Assembly (NCBI GenBank): GCA_021805775.1
Contig: JAJZED010000010.1
Span: forward strand, 1-64,000
Source: a bacterium
GTDB lineage: Bacteria > Vulcanimicrobiota > Vulcanimicrobiia > Vulcanimicrobiales > Vulcanimicrobiaceae
Direction: 5' to 3'
DNA length: 64,000 nucleotides
Position 1 is the stretch's first letter; each line of letters starts with the position of its first letter. Made by a program: the position numbers and the translations under genes. Below, one piece after another: positions 4,497 to 64,000 of this stretch. Below the pieces are notes generated by a model. It saw only the letters and a list, made by a program, of their open reading frames with translations. It was not told where the DNA came from and did not search any database.

Positions 4497-6765
4497 CGCC
4501 TTCAATTATGTGCTTACCGTTGGATTATACCCGGCCGAACTTCTTTTGGGCCTTGCAATCGGAGTGGCCTTGTTATCATGGTCTCTAACAACGCATTGGC
4601 GATCGAACATTAAACTGGGGGTTTTTCCACGCATTCACGATAATGATAATGATGGAACCATATACCTCGCATCAACCGGCTTCATCGCAGGAATAGTTAT
4701 AGCTATCACCCTGCTTAGGGAACTTCTACACCACACAAGTGCTATCAGTTCTTTAGTGCCACAATGGCTCACGCTGGGGTTTCTCGGCTTAGGTATCATT
4801 ATTTTCAATAGCCACTTGCATAGCCAAATGAAAAATCTGACCCGATTTAGGAATTGGACCACGCGTGCCCGCTGGTCTTTTATCGCAGTATATGTCGTAA
4901 CGGCAATTAGCCTCCTTGTTGTAAACAATAATTTCTACGCGTTTGTTATCGTGGCGTTCACTGTTCTAATTATTTATAACCTTTATCGTGATACCCATCA
5001 CAATTTAGCGAGCTGGCTCGTCTTAATCGCAGCGGTGCTCGGCATGTGGGCGTATACACTTGGGCTTCCGTTTACACCGCTTCCGTTGGAGATGCTCGGT
5101 GCCACTCCCTCAACTTCCCTTGCATTGATGAAATTTTTCGGCGCCACCCTGCTTGTGTGGATCGCCCTCTCACAGTTTGCAGGCCCGGTAGGACATCGCT
5201 CACTTTTCCGGCAGGCCGTCGAGTACGCTACGGCGACACTTATTTTCCTTTGGCAGGGGCTCCGGATTGACGGCTTGACTTCCGACTGGGTCCCCTATCA
5301 TCGTTCTTATTGGACTGGCCCCGCAACCTTTATCCGCGAGGGCCATTGGCTTCTTTGGGATATTCCGTCGCAGTATGGTTTTCTCTCCGAACTTGTCATT
5401 GCGAAATTTCCAGGTGCCACCTGTGACCAATCGCTCTACCTGGTTTCGGCCATCGCTCTCGCAGGGCAAGCGTTGATGCTTTTTGCGATTCTTCGGTCAT
5501 ACGGAAAAGGCATTTTAAATTTTGTATTTGCACTTTCCATCTCGGCCGCAGCGTTTTTTAGTTTAGACGCGAGCCGCTATCCGTTTGGTGGGCGACTCTA
5601 TCCGCAAATGGGTCTTCGCTTTATTTGGGTGGAGGCATTACTCTTTATTGCCTATCTTATCTATCGCCATCCAGGTTGGCGCACCACCCTTCAACGGGTA
5701 GGCTTTGTCGTCTGGGCGATCGGGATTATGTGGTCTTTCGAAAGTGCGGCGTGGGTAACAGTCATCTGGGGAGGGTATATATTAGCTGACATTTTCGCAC
5801 ATGATCACTCGAGATCGGGGAACTGGTTGGCCGAGGCATGGTTGAGGTTTTGGCCGTTTCTCGCGATTCCCGCCGCCATTATTCTCTGTTTAGATTCCTA
5901 TTACGTCGTTTTCCTCGGGCACTTGCCGGACTGGTTGAGCTACGTCGAATTTAGCACTCTGTATCTTAGCAACCCAATATTTCGACAACCATTGAATCTC
6001 GTTGGTTCGGGCTGGTTACTAATACTCGCTTTTGGAGCCGTGCTCACTCTTTGGCTAGTCGTTCATAAAAACAGACGGTCTGAAGCGGTCCCGTTATTGG
6101 CGGCTGCGTGGATGACACTCTGGGCAACAAGCATTTATTTTGTTGGGGAGGCGTTCCACAATCATGTGAACGCCCTTTCCGGGATTCTCAGTCTTATTGC
6201 TGCGGTAATTGGTGGGATATATACACGCGAGGAGCTCTCCCGACGCACCGCAGCTCGGCTTTCGCTTTTCTCGTTCGCGCCGTTTATGATAATTTTGCTT
6301 TCGTTTTCATTTGGGAATGTCACGTGGAATATGCTGTTTCCGCCCTACATTAAGAACGTCGTGCGTGCCACGCCCCCCATCACAGGCCCGCTACTTAAAA
6401 TCATAGACGCGGCCGGCATTAAGCCTAGCGATAAGGTGATCCTACCCCAATCTATCACCTGGACAACGCTTTCCGCGGGGCTAGTTCTACCGTACATTCG
6501 AGTAAAAGGTGGCAATCGTGAGCTAGTTGCATGGCTTCCCGTTAGTCCTAATGGTCCCTACAATATGTGGTTTACGCTCTCGCCATCGCGGCGCCAAACA
6601 TATATAGATCGGTTCGTTATGATCGAAAAGCGGGGAGGCTGGATTATAACCCCGCATAGCGAGGCTGCAAAATGCAACCTTTTTTCCTCCAACAAGTATT
6701 TCAAACCCGAACGAACAATTTCAACAAGTTCCTATAACGCAACTCTTTGTACCTTTGCAATATAA
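4378..6765 (+). CDS. Large multi-pass membrane protein, C-terminal part of the same frameshifted gene
   Basis: Coding sequence in this frame is open from 4312. The GTG at 4378 is only the first possible start, so this part is probably the continuation of the gene starting at 3699. About 795 residues hold many transmembrane helices, with a short soluble C-terminus (about residues 660-795). One loop (SDWVPYHRSYWTGPATFIREGHWLLWD) looks like the first periplasmic loop of a GT-C enzyme with the conserved acidic residue after the first helices of a module. The total length could therefore represent two fused membrane modules. No family can be assigned with certainty. Its place between glycosyltransferase and nonulosonate-type genes suggests a role in building or exporting a surface glycan. 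Confidence 0.65.
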   Translation: MVHATGNSVGAWSSSTIFHSSNIKGERFELLRNSFKMFISAFNYVLTVGLYPAELLLGLAIGVALLSWSLTTHWRSNIKLGVFPRIHDNDNDGTIYLASTGFIAGIVIAITLLRELLHHTSAISSLVPQWLTLGFLGLGIIIFNSHLHSQMKNLTRFRNWTTRARWSFIAVYVVTAISLLVVNNNFYAFVIVAFTVLIIYNLYRDTHHNLASWLVLIAAVLGMWAYTLGLPFTPLPLEMLGATPSTSLALMKFFGATLLVWIALSQFAGPVGHRSLFRQAVEYATATLIFLWQGLRIDGLTSDWVPYHRSYWTGPATFIREGHWLLWDIPSQYGFLSELVIAKFPGATCDQSLYLVSAIALAGQALMLFAILRSYGKGILNFVFALSISAAAFFSLDASRYPFGGRLYPQMGLRFIWVEALLFIAYLIYRHPGWRTTLQRVGFVVWAIGIMWSFESAAWVTVIWGGYILADIFAHDHSRSGNWLAEAWLRFWPFLAIPAAIILCLDSYYVVFLGHLPDWLSYVEFSTLYLSNPIFRQPLNLVGSGWLLILAFGAVLTLWLVVHKNRRSEAVPLLAAAWMTLWATSIYFVGEAFHNHVNALSGILSLIAAVIGGIYTREELSRRTAARLSLFSFAPFMIILLSFSFGNVTWNMLFPPYIKNVVRATPPITGPLLKIIDAAGIKPSDKVILPQSITWTTLSAGLVLPYIRVKGGNRELVAWLPVSPNGPYNMWFTLSPSRRQTYIDRFVMIEKRGGWIITPHSEAAKCNLFSSNKYFKPERTISTSSYNATLCTFAI

Positions 6766-11923: not shown

Positions 11924-14206
11924 ATGGCACGACGCCCCCCGAACTTCGCCCAGAAGATGCGACATTGGAAGCAACGGCCTCTAGGACCCGCGGCTGATAC
12001 GGCGGCGACGATATCGGTGTGGCTGGCGACTGCTACGCTCGCGACGTGGAGCGTGATGGGGAATGGGATCCCGGCGCTGCGACACGATTGGCGCGCTCCG
12101 GCTTACCACCACGCCCTCAGCGGCTGGATATCGTCTTTTTTTCAGCCGTGGGCAACTAGCGGGATCGGAACACCTCATCCGTATCCTACATTTTACCTGT
12201 TGGGTTTCTCCCTTTGGCCATTTCAATGGTTCTTAAACATTTGGCAGATACTTGTTTTGCTTATCGGAGCGACTACTTTCTTAGCGGCAGTCGGGGGGAC
12301 GGCAATCGCCAAGCGCGCCGGCGCTCCGCGAGCTTCGGCGCTTGCAATTGGAGCCATTTGCACGTTAAATCCTTGGGTTTACTCAAAATTAGTCGCAGGG
12401 CATATCCTAATGATTTTCGCGTTCGCGGTATCAATGCTTTTAATAGCAGAATTACAGCGTGATCGGCCGCGCCGCGCGATATTGATCCTGCTTTATGCTC
12501 TTTCGATTACGCAAATCGAATATTTTATTATTTTGTTCATCCCCCTGTTATTTTGGAGTATCAAGACACGGCGACTTTTTGAACTTTATGCGATGTTGAT
12601 CGCCGCACTTCCAATTATCGTCGGAATACTCGGAAGGTACGGTTCGATTCGCGCCACCCCTTATCTGTTGCCATGGCAACTGAGCAATTCGGTCCCCCTA
12701 CTTCAAGGTATTCTTTTGCAAGGATATTCTTTTAATTACGCGCATGCGTTTGCACCCATATGGCCTGTTTTAACATTAATAACGCTCCTTTCCGTCGTTG
12801 GAATGATGTTCCTAAATAACATGGTTGCGCGGGTTGCTGCAATCGTGGGCTTACTGGGCTGGGTCTTTGCATCCGGCCTCGATGGGCCCATCGCGCCGTT
12901 CTACCGCACATTGGTTCTGGCGATACCCGAGAGTGGTTTGTTTCGCGAATTATATGATCTCATCGCTCTTTTAGTGGTCGCATATGCAATTTGTCTTGGC
13001 GCGATTGCGGCGAAAAGTAAACTCGCCAGCGGACTAATTATAGCCAGTGCAATTTGTTTAATTTTCCCGTGGATCACGGTGCCGGTGTCGCGCGAATTCG
13101 TGGATGCATCGACAATTCCGCAAATTACCCTACCTCGCGATCCTCAAACACGAACGGCGTTATTTCCCTCGTTTCAACCACTAACATATGTGGGGCGCGG
13201 TGAGGGCGTCGACCCGGACGCTTATTCCCAACCCGGCCGAAGCGCACCAATAAACCAGTATATGAACTCTTTCCCCGTCGACGCCGCATTTGGCAGCGCG
13301 CTGCACGGCAATTTCGGCATGCTCCGGGGGCTCTCCGTCCGGTACATCATCGTGCGTCCATACCTTAAATCCGATATCGCCTCTCTCCGATACCAGCTTT
13401 CAGCGCCGATACCTCGGGCAACTATACGGGCACGCACTATGCCTCCGTACCCAATCGTGGCGATTGTCCCGCCTCCGGAAACGGCAGCGCTCCCATTAGA
13501 CCCTCGCGAGGATGCCCGGTTTATCGGTGACGTTGACCGCATAAATCTCATGGACGTTATGCCGGATCGGTCGTCGATTAATCCGAACGACGCCTGGGTT
13601 GATGCGAGGCTTGCTTTTGCATCGTTTCCTCAAATCGAGACGCCATTTGATGGCGCCTTTTCGATGGGAGAGAAACATCTACAGATTCCTCCCGGCAAAA
13701 ATATACTCGCGTGGACAAGTGGCAGCATTAGGGGGTCAACAAAAGCAAATATCGCCTATACGACTAAACATTTGCGCTGGTGGCCGCTTCCGCCTAACAC
13801 ATCATGGGTCCAATGTCATGGCGTTTGTGCTGTTATCGCGGCGGCAGACATACCGTCACATCTTCCCCGTATGACAGCTCATGTCCGCGGAATCGCGGCC
13901 AGGGTAACTCAGAGGCTCCCATGGCTATGGGAGGCAAGCATACCGGCAAACTCGACCGGGTCGCTCCGATTTACCGAAACATACGATCCCTATTGGGTCG
14001 CGACAACAGGGATAGGCCTTTGGACGCACTACCGCCTCGATCTCTCTCTTAATGGCTGGGCAATTAGGCCGAGCACGCAGCGGCAACGGGTGTTTCTCAT
14101 AGAAATTTTGGCTGCATCCCAGTATATTCTCGAGCTCATTTCATACTTTATAATACTCCTAATGACCATCTCAGCGTGGGTTAGGTCGTCGAGGTCCATC
14201 CGGTGA
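11924..14206 (+). CDS. Large membrane protein with extracytoplasmic domain, unknown (GT-C-like)
   Basis: The frame is open from 11702, but the region before 11761 overlaps the divergent NeuB-like gene. A start at ATG 11924 (AGGCGGA directly before) or ATG 11957 is more likely. The ~760-residue protein begins with repeated hydrophobic helices (to about residue 390) including a first loop with WATSGIGTPHPYPTFYLLG, followed by a large soluble part and one closing helix near the C-terminus. This helices-plus-outside-domain layout resembles GT-C and YfhO-like glycan proteins, but I see no diagnostic motif. Its stop overlaps the start of the HAD gene (GTGA), so the pair is coupled. Confidence 0.7.
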   Translation: MARRPPNFAQKMRHWKQRPLGPAADTAATISVWLATATLATWSVMGNGIPALRHDWRAPAYHHALSGWISSFFQPWATSGIGTPHPYPTFYLLGFSLWPFQWFLNIWQILVLLIGATTFLAAVGGTAIAKRAGAPRASALAIGAICTLNPWVYSKLVAGHILMIFAFAVSMLLIAELQRDRPRRAILILLYALSITQIEYFIILFIPLLFWSIKTRRLFELYAMLIAALPIIVGILGRYGSIRATPYLLPWQLSNSVPLLQGILLQGYSFNYAHAFAPIWPVLTLITLLSVVGMMFLNNMVARVAAIVGLLGWVFASGLDGPIAPFYRTLVLAIPESGLFRELYDLIALLVVAYAICLGAIAAKSKLASGLIIASAICLIFPWITVPVSREFVDASTIPQITLPRDPQTRTALFPSFQPLTYVGRGEGVDPDAYSQPGRSAPINQYMNSFPVDAAFGSALHGNFGMLRGLSVRYIIVRPYLKSDIASLRYQLSAPIPRATIRARTMPPYPIVAIVPPPETAALPLDPREDARFIGDVDRINLMDVMPDRSSINPNDAWVDARLAFASFPQIETPFDGAFSMGEKHLQIPPGKNILAWTSGSIRGSTKANIAYTTKHLRWWPLPPNTSWVQCHGVCAVIAAADIPSHLPRMTAHVRGIAARVTQRLPWLWEASIPANSTGSLRFTETYDPYWVATTGIGLWTHYRLDLSLNGWAIRPSTQRQRVFLIEILAASQYILELISYFIILLMTISAWVRSSRSIR

Positions 14207-63473: not shown

Positions 63474-63560
63474 CTGTCACGCCGAGTAGGCTGCCTTGTC
63501 ACGCCGAGTAGGCTGCCTTGTCACGCCGAGTAGGCTGCGCAGCAACCGTATCGAGGCGCG
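63474..63560. repeat. Palindromic half-site repeats before the tRNA-like RNA
   Basis: Three tandem 22-bp units of GTCACGCCGAGTAGGCTGCC, the last extended to GCGCAGCAACCGTATCGAGG. The matching right arms lie on the other side of the RNA (63812-63850), so the RNA element sits inside a larger repeat palindrome. Confidence 0.8.
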
Positions 63561-63617
63561 CGCACCGTCACGCCGAGCGACCTCTTTCCAGCGCAAGCGT
63601 TCGCGTGAAGGATCGCC

Positions 63618-63689
63618 GGGGCGTTTCGATGGTGTCGACGGCCGAACCGTCACTTCGGGCCGCAGCGGGTTCGATTCCCGCACGCTCCA
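63618..63689 (+). ncRNA. tRNA-like RNA resembling the tRNA-like domain of tmRNA (degenerate or novel)
   Basis: A cloverleaf can be drawn. The acceptor stem GGGGCGT / ACGCTCC contains a G3-U70 wobble pair, with A73 as discriminator. A short D-type arm TCGA-TGGTG-TCGA follows. A five-pair stem CCGAA/TTCGG has loop CCGTCAC. The T arm GCGGG-TTCGATT-CCCGC is perfect. The 5' part (GGGGCG...TGGTGTCGACGG) looks like the start of tmRNA, and G3-U70 is the alanyl-tRNA synthetase identity pair. The mRNA-like part and pseudoknots of tmRNA are missing. As a normal tRNA it would read GUC (Asp), but U33 is C and the D arm is odd. A deleted tmRNA, a tRNA pseudogene or a new RNA are all possible. Confidence 0.5.
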
Positions 63690-63759
63690 ACTCAAGAACG
63701 TGCATTTGCACTGCATTGAGAAAGGTGCTAGTCTGAAGTCGACGGTTCGGCCGGCACCA

Positions 63760-63793
63760 AATGCGAGCTGCTCCATACGGGGCGGCTCGCATT
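63760..63793 (+). terminator. Long hairpin, probable terminator of the tRNA-like transcript
   Basis: Arms AATGCGAGC-TGCTCC and GGGGCG-GCTCGCATT form 15 continuous pairs (two G-U) around the loop ATAC, followed by ATTTGTG. Between this and the tRNA-like element lie two smaller stems (CTCAA/TTGAG at 63691-63720 and GGTGC/GCACC at 63724-63758). Confidence 0.6.
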
Positions 63794-63804
63794 ATTTGTG
63801 AAAT

Positions 63805-64000
63805 GCGCGTCTCGATACGGCTGCTGCGCAGCCTACTCGATGTGACAAGGCAGCCTACTCGATGTGGCAAGGCATAATAATTTTGTCACCCCGAGTAGCC
63901 GCCGTCGGCGGCGTATCGAGGGGCGCACGCACGTCTCGATACGGCTGCCGCGCAGCCTTTTCGACGTGATAACTTTTCCTACTCGATGTGGCAAGGCATA
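63805..64000. repeat. Palindromic repeats at right edge
   Basis: Contains GTCTCGATACGGCTGCTGCG, CAGCCTACTCGATGTGACA, a compound unit GTCACCCCGAGTAGCCGCCG ... GGCGTATCGAGGGG ... TCTCGATACGGCTGCCGCGC, and diverged copies ending in CTACTCGATGTGGCAAGGCA. The outer-arm form CTCGATGTG is a local variant. The array runs out of the window. Confidence 0.75.

Follow-up and report, generated by a model that had tools for sequence, protein, structure and literature searches.

The window, i.e., the 64,000-nucleotide stretch analyzed here, which forms the start of contig C8 in a draft genome of 2.59 Mb, carries near its end a module of two small RNAs that is undescribed in Rfam: RNA1, which resembles a tRNA or the tRNA-like domain (TLD) of tmRNA, and, downstream on the same strand, RNA2, a predicted antisense RNA directed at the middle arm of RNA1. 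The two almost certainly form a real, co-evolving pair, and RNA2 very probably controls RNA1 through antisense pairing. The anatomy, conservation, covariation, pair specificity, promoters and distribution of the module are strongly supported by the comparisons described below, while its transcription, neutralization, molecular target, toxicity and alanylation are what we infer from them. As for its function, we see an even chance that it is an antisense-controlled, CDS-less tmRNA-like module, in which RNA1 would engage SmpB, AlaRS or EF-Tu and RNA2 would neutralize RNA1.

Table 1. Features of the RNA1/RNA2 module in the window, and tandem TLD-only RNAs of the viral contig L275 (last line, positions on that contig)
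Feature	Positions	Strand	Description
Putative RNA1 promoter	63584-63610	+	CTTTCC - 15 nt - GTGAAG; weak instance (CTTT), placed by eye
RNA1	63618-63689	+	tRNA-like/tmRNA-TLD-like RNA of ~72 nt, no tag frame; 101 bits with model R1
RNA1 acceptor	63618-63624/63682-63688	+	GGGGCGT/ACGCTCC, 7 bp, includes G3.U70
RNA1 D hairpin	63626-63638	+	short, with GG
RNA1 middle (P2) arm	63639-63662	+	24 nt, capped stem-loop in place of the tmRNA core
Antisense target in RNA1	63639-63651	+	CGGCCGAACCGTC; middle-arm 5' strand and loop, perfect complement of 63741-63753
RNA1 T arm	63665-63681	+	GCGGG-TTCGATT-CCCGC, perfect and canonical; preceded by a 2-nt linker
RNA1 A73	63689	+	
RNA2 promoter	63706-63734	+	-35 TTGCAC (63706-63711); 17-nt spacer; extended -10 TGCTAGTCT, hexamer TAGTCT (63729-63734)
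RNA2	63740-63797	+	predicted antisense RNA of ~58 nt; its predicted 5' end holds the antisense segment 63741-63753
Intrinsic terminator hairpin	63760-63793	+	15 pairs (2 G.U), AATGCGAGCTGCTCC-ATAC-GGGGCGGCTCGCATT, then ATTTG
L275 TLD-only RNAs	12198-12272 and 12279-12351	-	tandem

RNA1 displays the hallmarks of a tmRNA-type tRNA-like domain that the original prediction had recognized, namely the tmRNA-like 5' segment (TGGTGTCGACGG), the G3-U70 pair, A73 and a perfect T arm, and it equally lacks a tag reading frame: only 24 nt, forming a capped stem-loop without tag frame or pseudoknots, separate the D hairpin from the linker of the T arm. All the elements listed by that prediction were found where it had placed them, and the feature is well outside what chance would yield. 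The window copy folds into a cloverleaf with a minimum free energy (MFE) of -32.8 kcal/mol, and 65 of 69 copies, taken alone, fold with the cloverleaf acceptor in MFE predictions. In the RNA1 alignment, six of the seven middle-arm pairs vary on both sides, i.e., show compensatory changes, and the covariation score of the whole structure was reached by none of 500 shuffles. The loop of the middle arm follows the pattern YYGNNAM. The D stem is invariantly TCGA/TCGA in relatives near the window, whereas distant members have CTGC/GCAG, TCGG/CCGA, CTCT/AGAG or CTCCC/GGGAG instead; such covarying replacement of stems of 3-5 bp indicates that RNA1 has a real D arm. The tmRNA signature GGTGTCGAC is kept in most members and lost in distant ones.

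Within the acceptor of the 55 ungapped copies, G2-C71 is universal (55), G3.U70 is present in 54, G4-C69 in 51 and A73 in 53, with the remaining pairs being variable. Together these correspond to the bacterial Ala identity set (PMC9976931), in keeping with the earlier suggestion of an alanine-accepting RNA. Against simple alanylation, however, none of the 55 copies encodes a CCA at its 3' end and, in most members, positions -3 to -1 pair with 73-75, placing A73 opposite U-1 in a 10-bp stem. This extension covaries at position -2 (C-G, T-A, G-C) and is not present in the window's own genus. The CCA could be added to RNA1 after processing.

RNA2 is predicted to be a separate transcript with its own sigma70-type promoter and a start at about position 63740. 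That promoter, of the form TTGnnn-17-TGnTAnnnT, is nearly invariant across 69 units: the TTG bases are conserved in 67, 66 and 64, the 17-nt spacer in 54, the TG in 65, and the -10 T, A and final T in 64, 65 and 66, respectively. The antisense segment begins a few nucleotides past the -10 in nearly all units. The 15-pair hairpin noticed earlier is indeed present in the window, with two of its pairs being G.U, and a terminator-like hairpin occurs in 65 of the 69 units, giving a median predicted RNA2 length of 61 nt. RNA1 is preceded by a bipartite motif, CCTTGYY-13-nGCGTGATnGA, with C in 62, T in 66, T in 53 and G in 49, and G in 64, A in 61 and T in 42 of the 69 units, although the automatic alignment failed to place it in several copies of the window's genus. 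As the motif ends 5-6 nt upstream of position -3, RNA1 transcripts probably begin with the stem. The motif is unlike the sigma70 type used for RNA2, and recognition by an alternative sigma factor is possible.

The perfect 13-nt complementarity between RNA1 and the downstream segment, which the original prediction had pointed out in this one sequence, covaries unit by unit across the family. In 67 of 69 units the 5' end of RNA2 is a 12-22-nt antisense of the middle arm of its own RNA1; the two exceptions are a seemingly degenerate unit, L091_9998, and a decayed second copy in the window's genome. The median complementarity score is 39 against the unit's own RNA1, as compared to 19 against non-cognate units and 18 against shuffled sequences. 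Of 935 alignment cells, 88% are paired, each column containing 2-4 kinds of Watson-Crick pair, and sliding the register by 1-3 nt lowers this to 30-39%; the anchor of this slide control was picked by best match, making the own-versus-other comparison the fairer test. In a comparison of 14 genomes with at least two units, almost all intact pairs gave their strongest duplex between cognate partners, i.e., arrays hold mutually specific RNA1/RNA2 pairs. The three exceptions are the decayed second copy and one pair each in L071 and L081, in both of which the automatic promoter placement appears to have clipped RNA2 off register. Moreover, the antisense sequence varies among units occupying the same syntenic locus in different genera, which argues that RNA2 tracks RNA1 rather than a conserved outside target; going by this pattern, RNA2 appears to be dedicated to RNA1, with the pair drifting together. 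Three units of family f3 (L094, L095 and L098) have an extra hairpin between RNA1 and the RNA2 promoter, whose loop is, by eye, complementary to the RNA1 middle arm and which is possibly a second cis-acting inhibitor.

Relatives of a 200-bp segment spanning the unit are found in 13 of 60 related genomes, with tandem arrays in several. A 78-nt covariance model, R1, built from 16 relatives, recovers about 80 related units in about 40 Eremiobacterota genomes, bearing out the conservation, with compensatory changes in the middle arm, that the original prediction had proposed to look for in related genomes. At E<=0.01, 75 of 149 genomes have a match, roughly 40 of these scoring above 48 bits. The strong matches are spread across the window's family, and a handful occur in one other family of the class; upon inspection, many weak matches within the class proved to be true but diverged members, while those in families f11, f14 and f16 proved to be tRNA-Lys. 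The model finds zero copies in two non-Eremiobacterota genomes (6.3 and 9.3 Mb). A scan of 84,980 species genomes with an exact pattern returned nothing but Eremiobacterota and MAG records titled 'bacterium' (most of them identical with the former), plus two chance matches in Armatimonadota (L120) and Streptomyces (L125) that lie in coding-type sequence and have no model match. Many genomes of the window's own family are without the module.

Two unit loci are syntenic across genera: one, occupied in the window and at about a dozen further loci, lies between sucC/sucD and an acyl-CoA dehydrogenase, and the other (about fifteen loci) lies near pyruvate phosphate dikinase and prfB, with the neighbors being named by sequence inspection rather than family search. 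Clustering of neighboring ORFs in search of a conserved protein partner recovered only synteny groups of housekeeping-type genes; hence, we propose no protein component. A small conserved ORF starting ATGGTGTCGAC was rejected, as members with a shifted frame (L020) retain the RNA structure. The second copy in the window's genome lies just beyond the window (G000:C8:64196-64385; L099:9196-9385). It has lost the acceptor 5' strand and joins the RNA1 of one type to the RNA2 of another, which mismatches it; both parental types adjoin each other in G001, and the copy looks like a decayed deletion fusion of two units. Both sides of the window's unit (63477-63560 and 63805-64000) contain ~25-bp tandem and dispersed repeats, TCACGCCGAGTAGGCTGC... 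and the inverse CTCGATACGGCTGC..., and the longest inverted repeat pair near the unit gives a spurious Rfam match to MIR918.

We next consider what else RNA1 could be. The Rfam scan of the whole window recovered no family at gathering score, and on the RNA1 segment the tmRNA and tRNA models, with which the original prediction had proposed to check it, stay below gathering (the tmRNA models far below), with weak local matches to beta_tmRNA (18 bits) and tmRNA_permuted (16 bits). An ordinary tRNA, which would have spoken against that prediction, is what ARAGORN, and only ARAGORN, calls at 63618-63689, namely tRNA-Asp(gtc), but the Rfam tRNA model gives two RNA1 members just 23.6-27.9 bits as against a cut-off of 29. 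RNA1 might be a mistranslating tRNA that is charged with alanine and carries an aberrant anticodon, GUC in the window copy and GAU, GAC or others in further members, with RNA2 blocking its anticodon arm. The YYGNNAM loop does resemble an anticodon loop and the Ala identity set is present; however, the middle arm has a bulge and 7-8 pairs as opposed to the 5 bp of an anticodon arm, it lacks a preceding linker and is followed by a linker of just 2 nt, C is frequent at position 33, and CCA is absent, making a decoding role quite improbable. The original prediction also entertained a tmRNA that had lost its core, i.e., an ssrA copy that is now a pseudogene, and held that an intact ssrA should then exist elsewhere. 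The latter was indeed found (G000:C6:257704-258058, 129 bits, tag ANNNYALAA), along with SmpB at C23:38298-38720; the other tmRNA-model matches in the genome are ordinary tRNAs. The tmRNA 5' signature of RNA1, this intact ssrA, and the truncated second copy could all be accommodated by decay, but the approximately 80 copies across some 40 genomes, with conserved determinants, syntenic positions and compensatory changes, represent a conserved multi-copy family, and the covariation contradicts the pseudogene reading, to which we give hardly any credence. The intact tmRNA and SmpB likewise speak against both a dead ssrA and an ordinary tRNA.

The remaining alternatives concern the relationship between the two RNAs. 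The original prediction envisaged one discrete transcript of about 180 nt whose complementary stretches allow an alternative fold; in a cis-acting version, these would form a pseudoknot or switch and the internal promoter-like sequence would be incidental. In MFE predictions, which for so long a transcript are no proof of fold-back in vivo, the full-length read-through transcripts show pairing of P2 with the antisense in 63 of 69 cases and retain the acceptor in only 3 of 69, as against 60 of 69 once the RNA2 part is removed. Additionally, a helix is possible between the segments on either side of the antisense, as with GATGCCGT/ACGGCATC in G035 (by eye). Yet the conserved bases of the second promoter coincide exactly with those contacted by sigma70, at a 17-nt spacing, the antisense begins at the predicted +1, and no gene is consistently placed directly under such a switch. 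As this promoter is conserved in almost all copies, the ~180-nt transcript does not hold as the sole RNA, and the complementarity is mainly that of an antisense RNA; a purely cis-acting RNA is thus unlikely. Conversely, RNA2 might be the regulator proper, a trans-acting small RNA with mRNA targets, with RNA1 being a stable, tRNA-shaped decoy that is induced from a different promoter and titrates it. The differing promoter types and the small-RNA-like layout of RNA2, with its 5' seed and terminator, would suit such a sponge. However, a seed that matched conserved mRNAs is not expected to differ at syntenic loci of different genera and to drift with its own RNA1, and the conserved alanine determinants of RNA1 are left unexplained; we regard this, too, as doubtful.

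Returning to the antisense-controlled tmRNA-like module, we posit the following mechanism. The invariant part of RNA1, i.e., the acceptor, A73, the D hairpin with its GG and the T arm, would be the active part, engaging the readers of tmRNA or tRNA-Ala (SmpB, AlaRS, EF-Tu) and thereby competing with tmRNA. The middle arm would serve as an address, the variable part read by RNA2, whose pairing would break the cloverleaf and neutralize RNA1. Transcripts that start at the RNA1 promoter and read through would contain their antisense in cis and fold back into an inactive form, from which 3' trimming would free active RNA1; the above folding predictions, with and without the RNA2 part, suggest that the long transcript would be inactive until trimmed. 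Precedence for such competition comes from a DS6A-like TLD-only molecule, which strongly inhibits tmRNA whether chargeable or not, perhaps via SmpB titration (PMC4131195, PMC11915505). Given this, and given that the constant part of RNA1 is the part read by AlaRS, EF-Tu and, in tmRNA, SmpB, a competitor of tmRNA or of alanine charging is the most economical interpretation. Whether RNA1 acts on trans-translation or alanylation strikes us as evenly balanced between yes and no; SmpB/tmRNA is the single most likely target, a choice that we make tentatively. The tmRNAs have a D loop without a D stem, and recognition of RNA1 by SmpB is uncertain because RNA1 has a covarying one.

If so, the module could be an RNA-only toxin-antitoxin or phage-host conflict system, wherein a tmRNA-mimicking RNA jams ribosome rescue or the Ala-tRNA supply and is neutralized by a co-evolving antisense, with insulated pairs in arrays and in both bacteria and phage. 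We consider this plausible but somewhat short of an even chance, and would say the same of a toxin-antitoxin in the strict sense. The two position-conserved loci, and the many genomes of the family that are without the module, would be less usual for a selfish toxin-antitoxin. There are very few RNA-only toxin-antitoxin pairs, and we know of none with a tRNA-like effector. In hok/sok, the full-length transcript is inactive by fold-back, 3' trimming activates it and the antisense neutralizes it. By analogy, the module may share with such type I systems its predicted fold-back, trimming-dependent activation and antisense neutralization; it differs in that the effector is a structured RNA rather than a peptide-encoding mRNA, and in that the antisense lies downstream on the same strand rather than on the opposite one. 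With the type VIII systems (RNA toxin/RNA antitoxin, e.g., CreTA; PMC12737573) the module shares two small RNA partners with specific, cognate pairing, which is observed here in silico, and a probable interference with translation; the known toxic RNAs of that type are, however, not tRNA-like, and in the module no Cas involvement was seen and toxicity is putative.

Among structured RNAs, tmRNA (Rfam RF00023, including permuted forms) shares with RNA1 the 5' signature GGnnUCGAC, G3.U70, A73 and the acceptor/D/P2/T spacing; unlike it, RNA1 has no mRNA-like domain or pseudoknots, possesses a D stem, has a loop-closed P2 and coexists with a separate host tmRNA. Closer still in form are the CDS-less tmRNA of the mycobacteriophage DS6A and short plastid forms (PMC4131195, PMC11915505), which, like RNA1, comprise little beyond the TLD, with no tag frame and an alanine-type acceptor; a TLD with a closed P2 and no CDS is precisely what RNA1 is. 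RNA1 differs from the DS6A kind in that it occurs as a multi-copy family in bacteria, has a D stem that covaries, encodes no CCA and is accompanied by a dedicated antisense RNA with its own predicted promoter. The bacterial Y RNAs such as YrlA (PMC8394870) are also small RNAs with a tRNA-like module; however, a long terminal stem bearing a site for Rsr (Ro60) binding was not recognized in RNA1, Rfam reported no Y-RNA matches to it, and it has an antisense partner.

The DS6A TLD-only tmRNA is phage-borne, as is one RNA1 unit: the 64.5-kb IMG/VR contig L151 (IMGVR_UViG_3300047171_000080), which carries terminase genes, has an intact unit at 5100-5330 (88 bits) with a 16-nt antisense and clear promoters for both RNAs (TTGACC-17-TACGAT ahead of RNA1). 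This is a probable phage of Eremiobacterota, the host being inferred. TLD-only, alanine-type RNAs without a tag frame are also present on the viral contigs L272 (1632-1715, minus strand), L261 (1751-1833, minus strand) and L275 (two in tandem; Table 1), where the search for an antisense gave none above the shuffled range. Most further viral pattern matches (L152-L158, L159-L186) are due to chance.

If confirmed, the module would turn CDS-less tmRNA-like RNAs, so far curiosities known from one phage and some plastids, into a widespread regulated device acting on ribosome rescue or alanine charging. Its address-arm design, with a constant active part and a freely variable, antisense-controlled arm, would amount to a natural set of orthogonal RNA pairs. 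On the annotation side, the tRNA-Asp label that ARAGORN gives the window copy is likely a misannotation, which is corrected here. ARAGORN also misses the intact tmRNA of the window's genome. In every tmRNA read in families f1 and f2, from the window's family and order (L217-L229, L233-L236 and the genome's own copy), the T stem is intact (CGGGG/CCCCG in f1) but the T loop is aberrant, in most cases GGC[AG]G[CT]N in place of UUCAACU, while in f3 (L230-L232) the loop is canonical.
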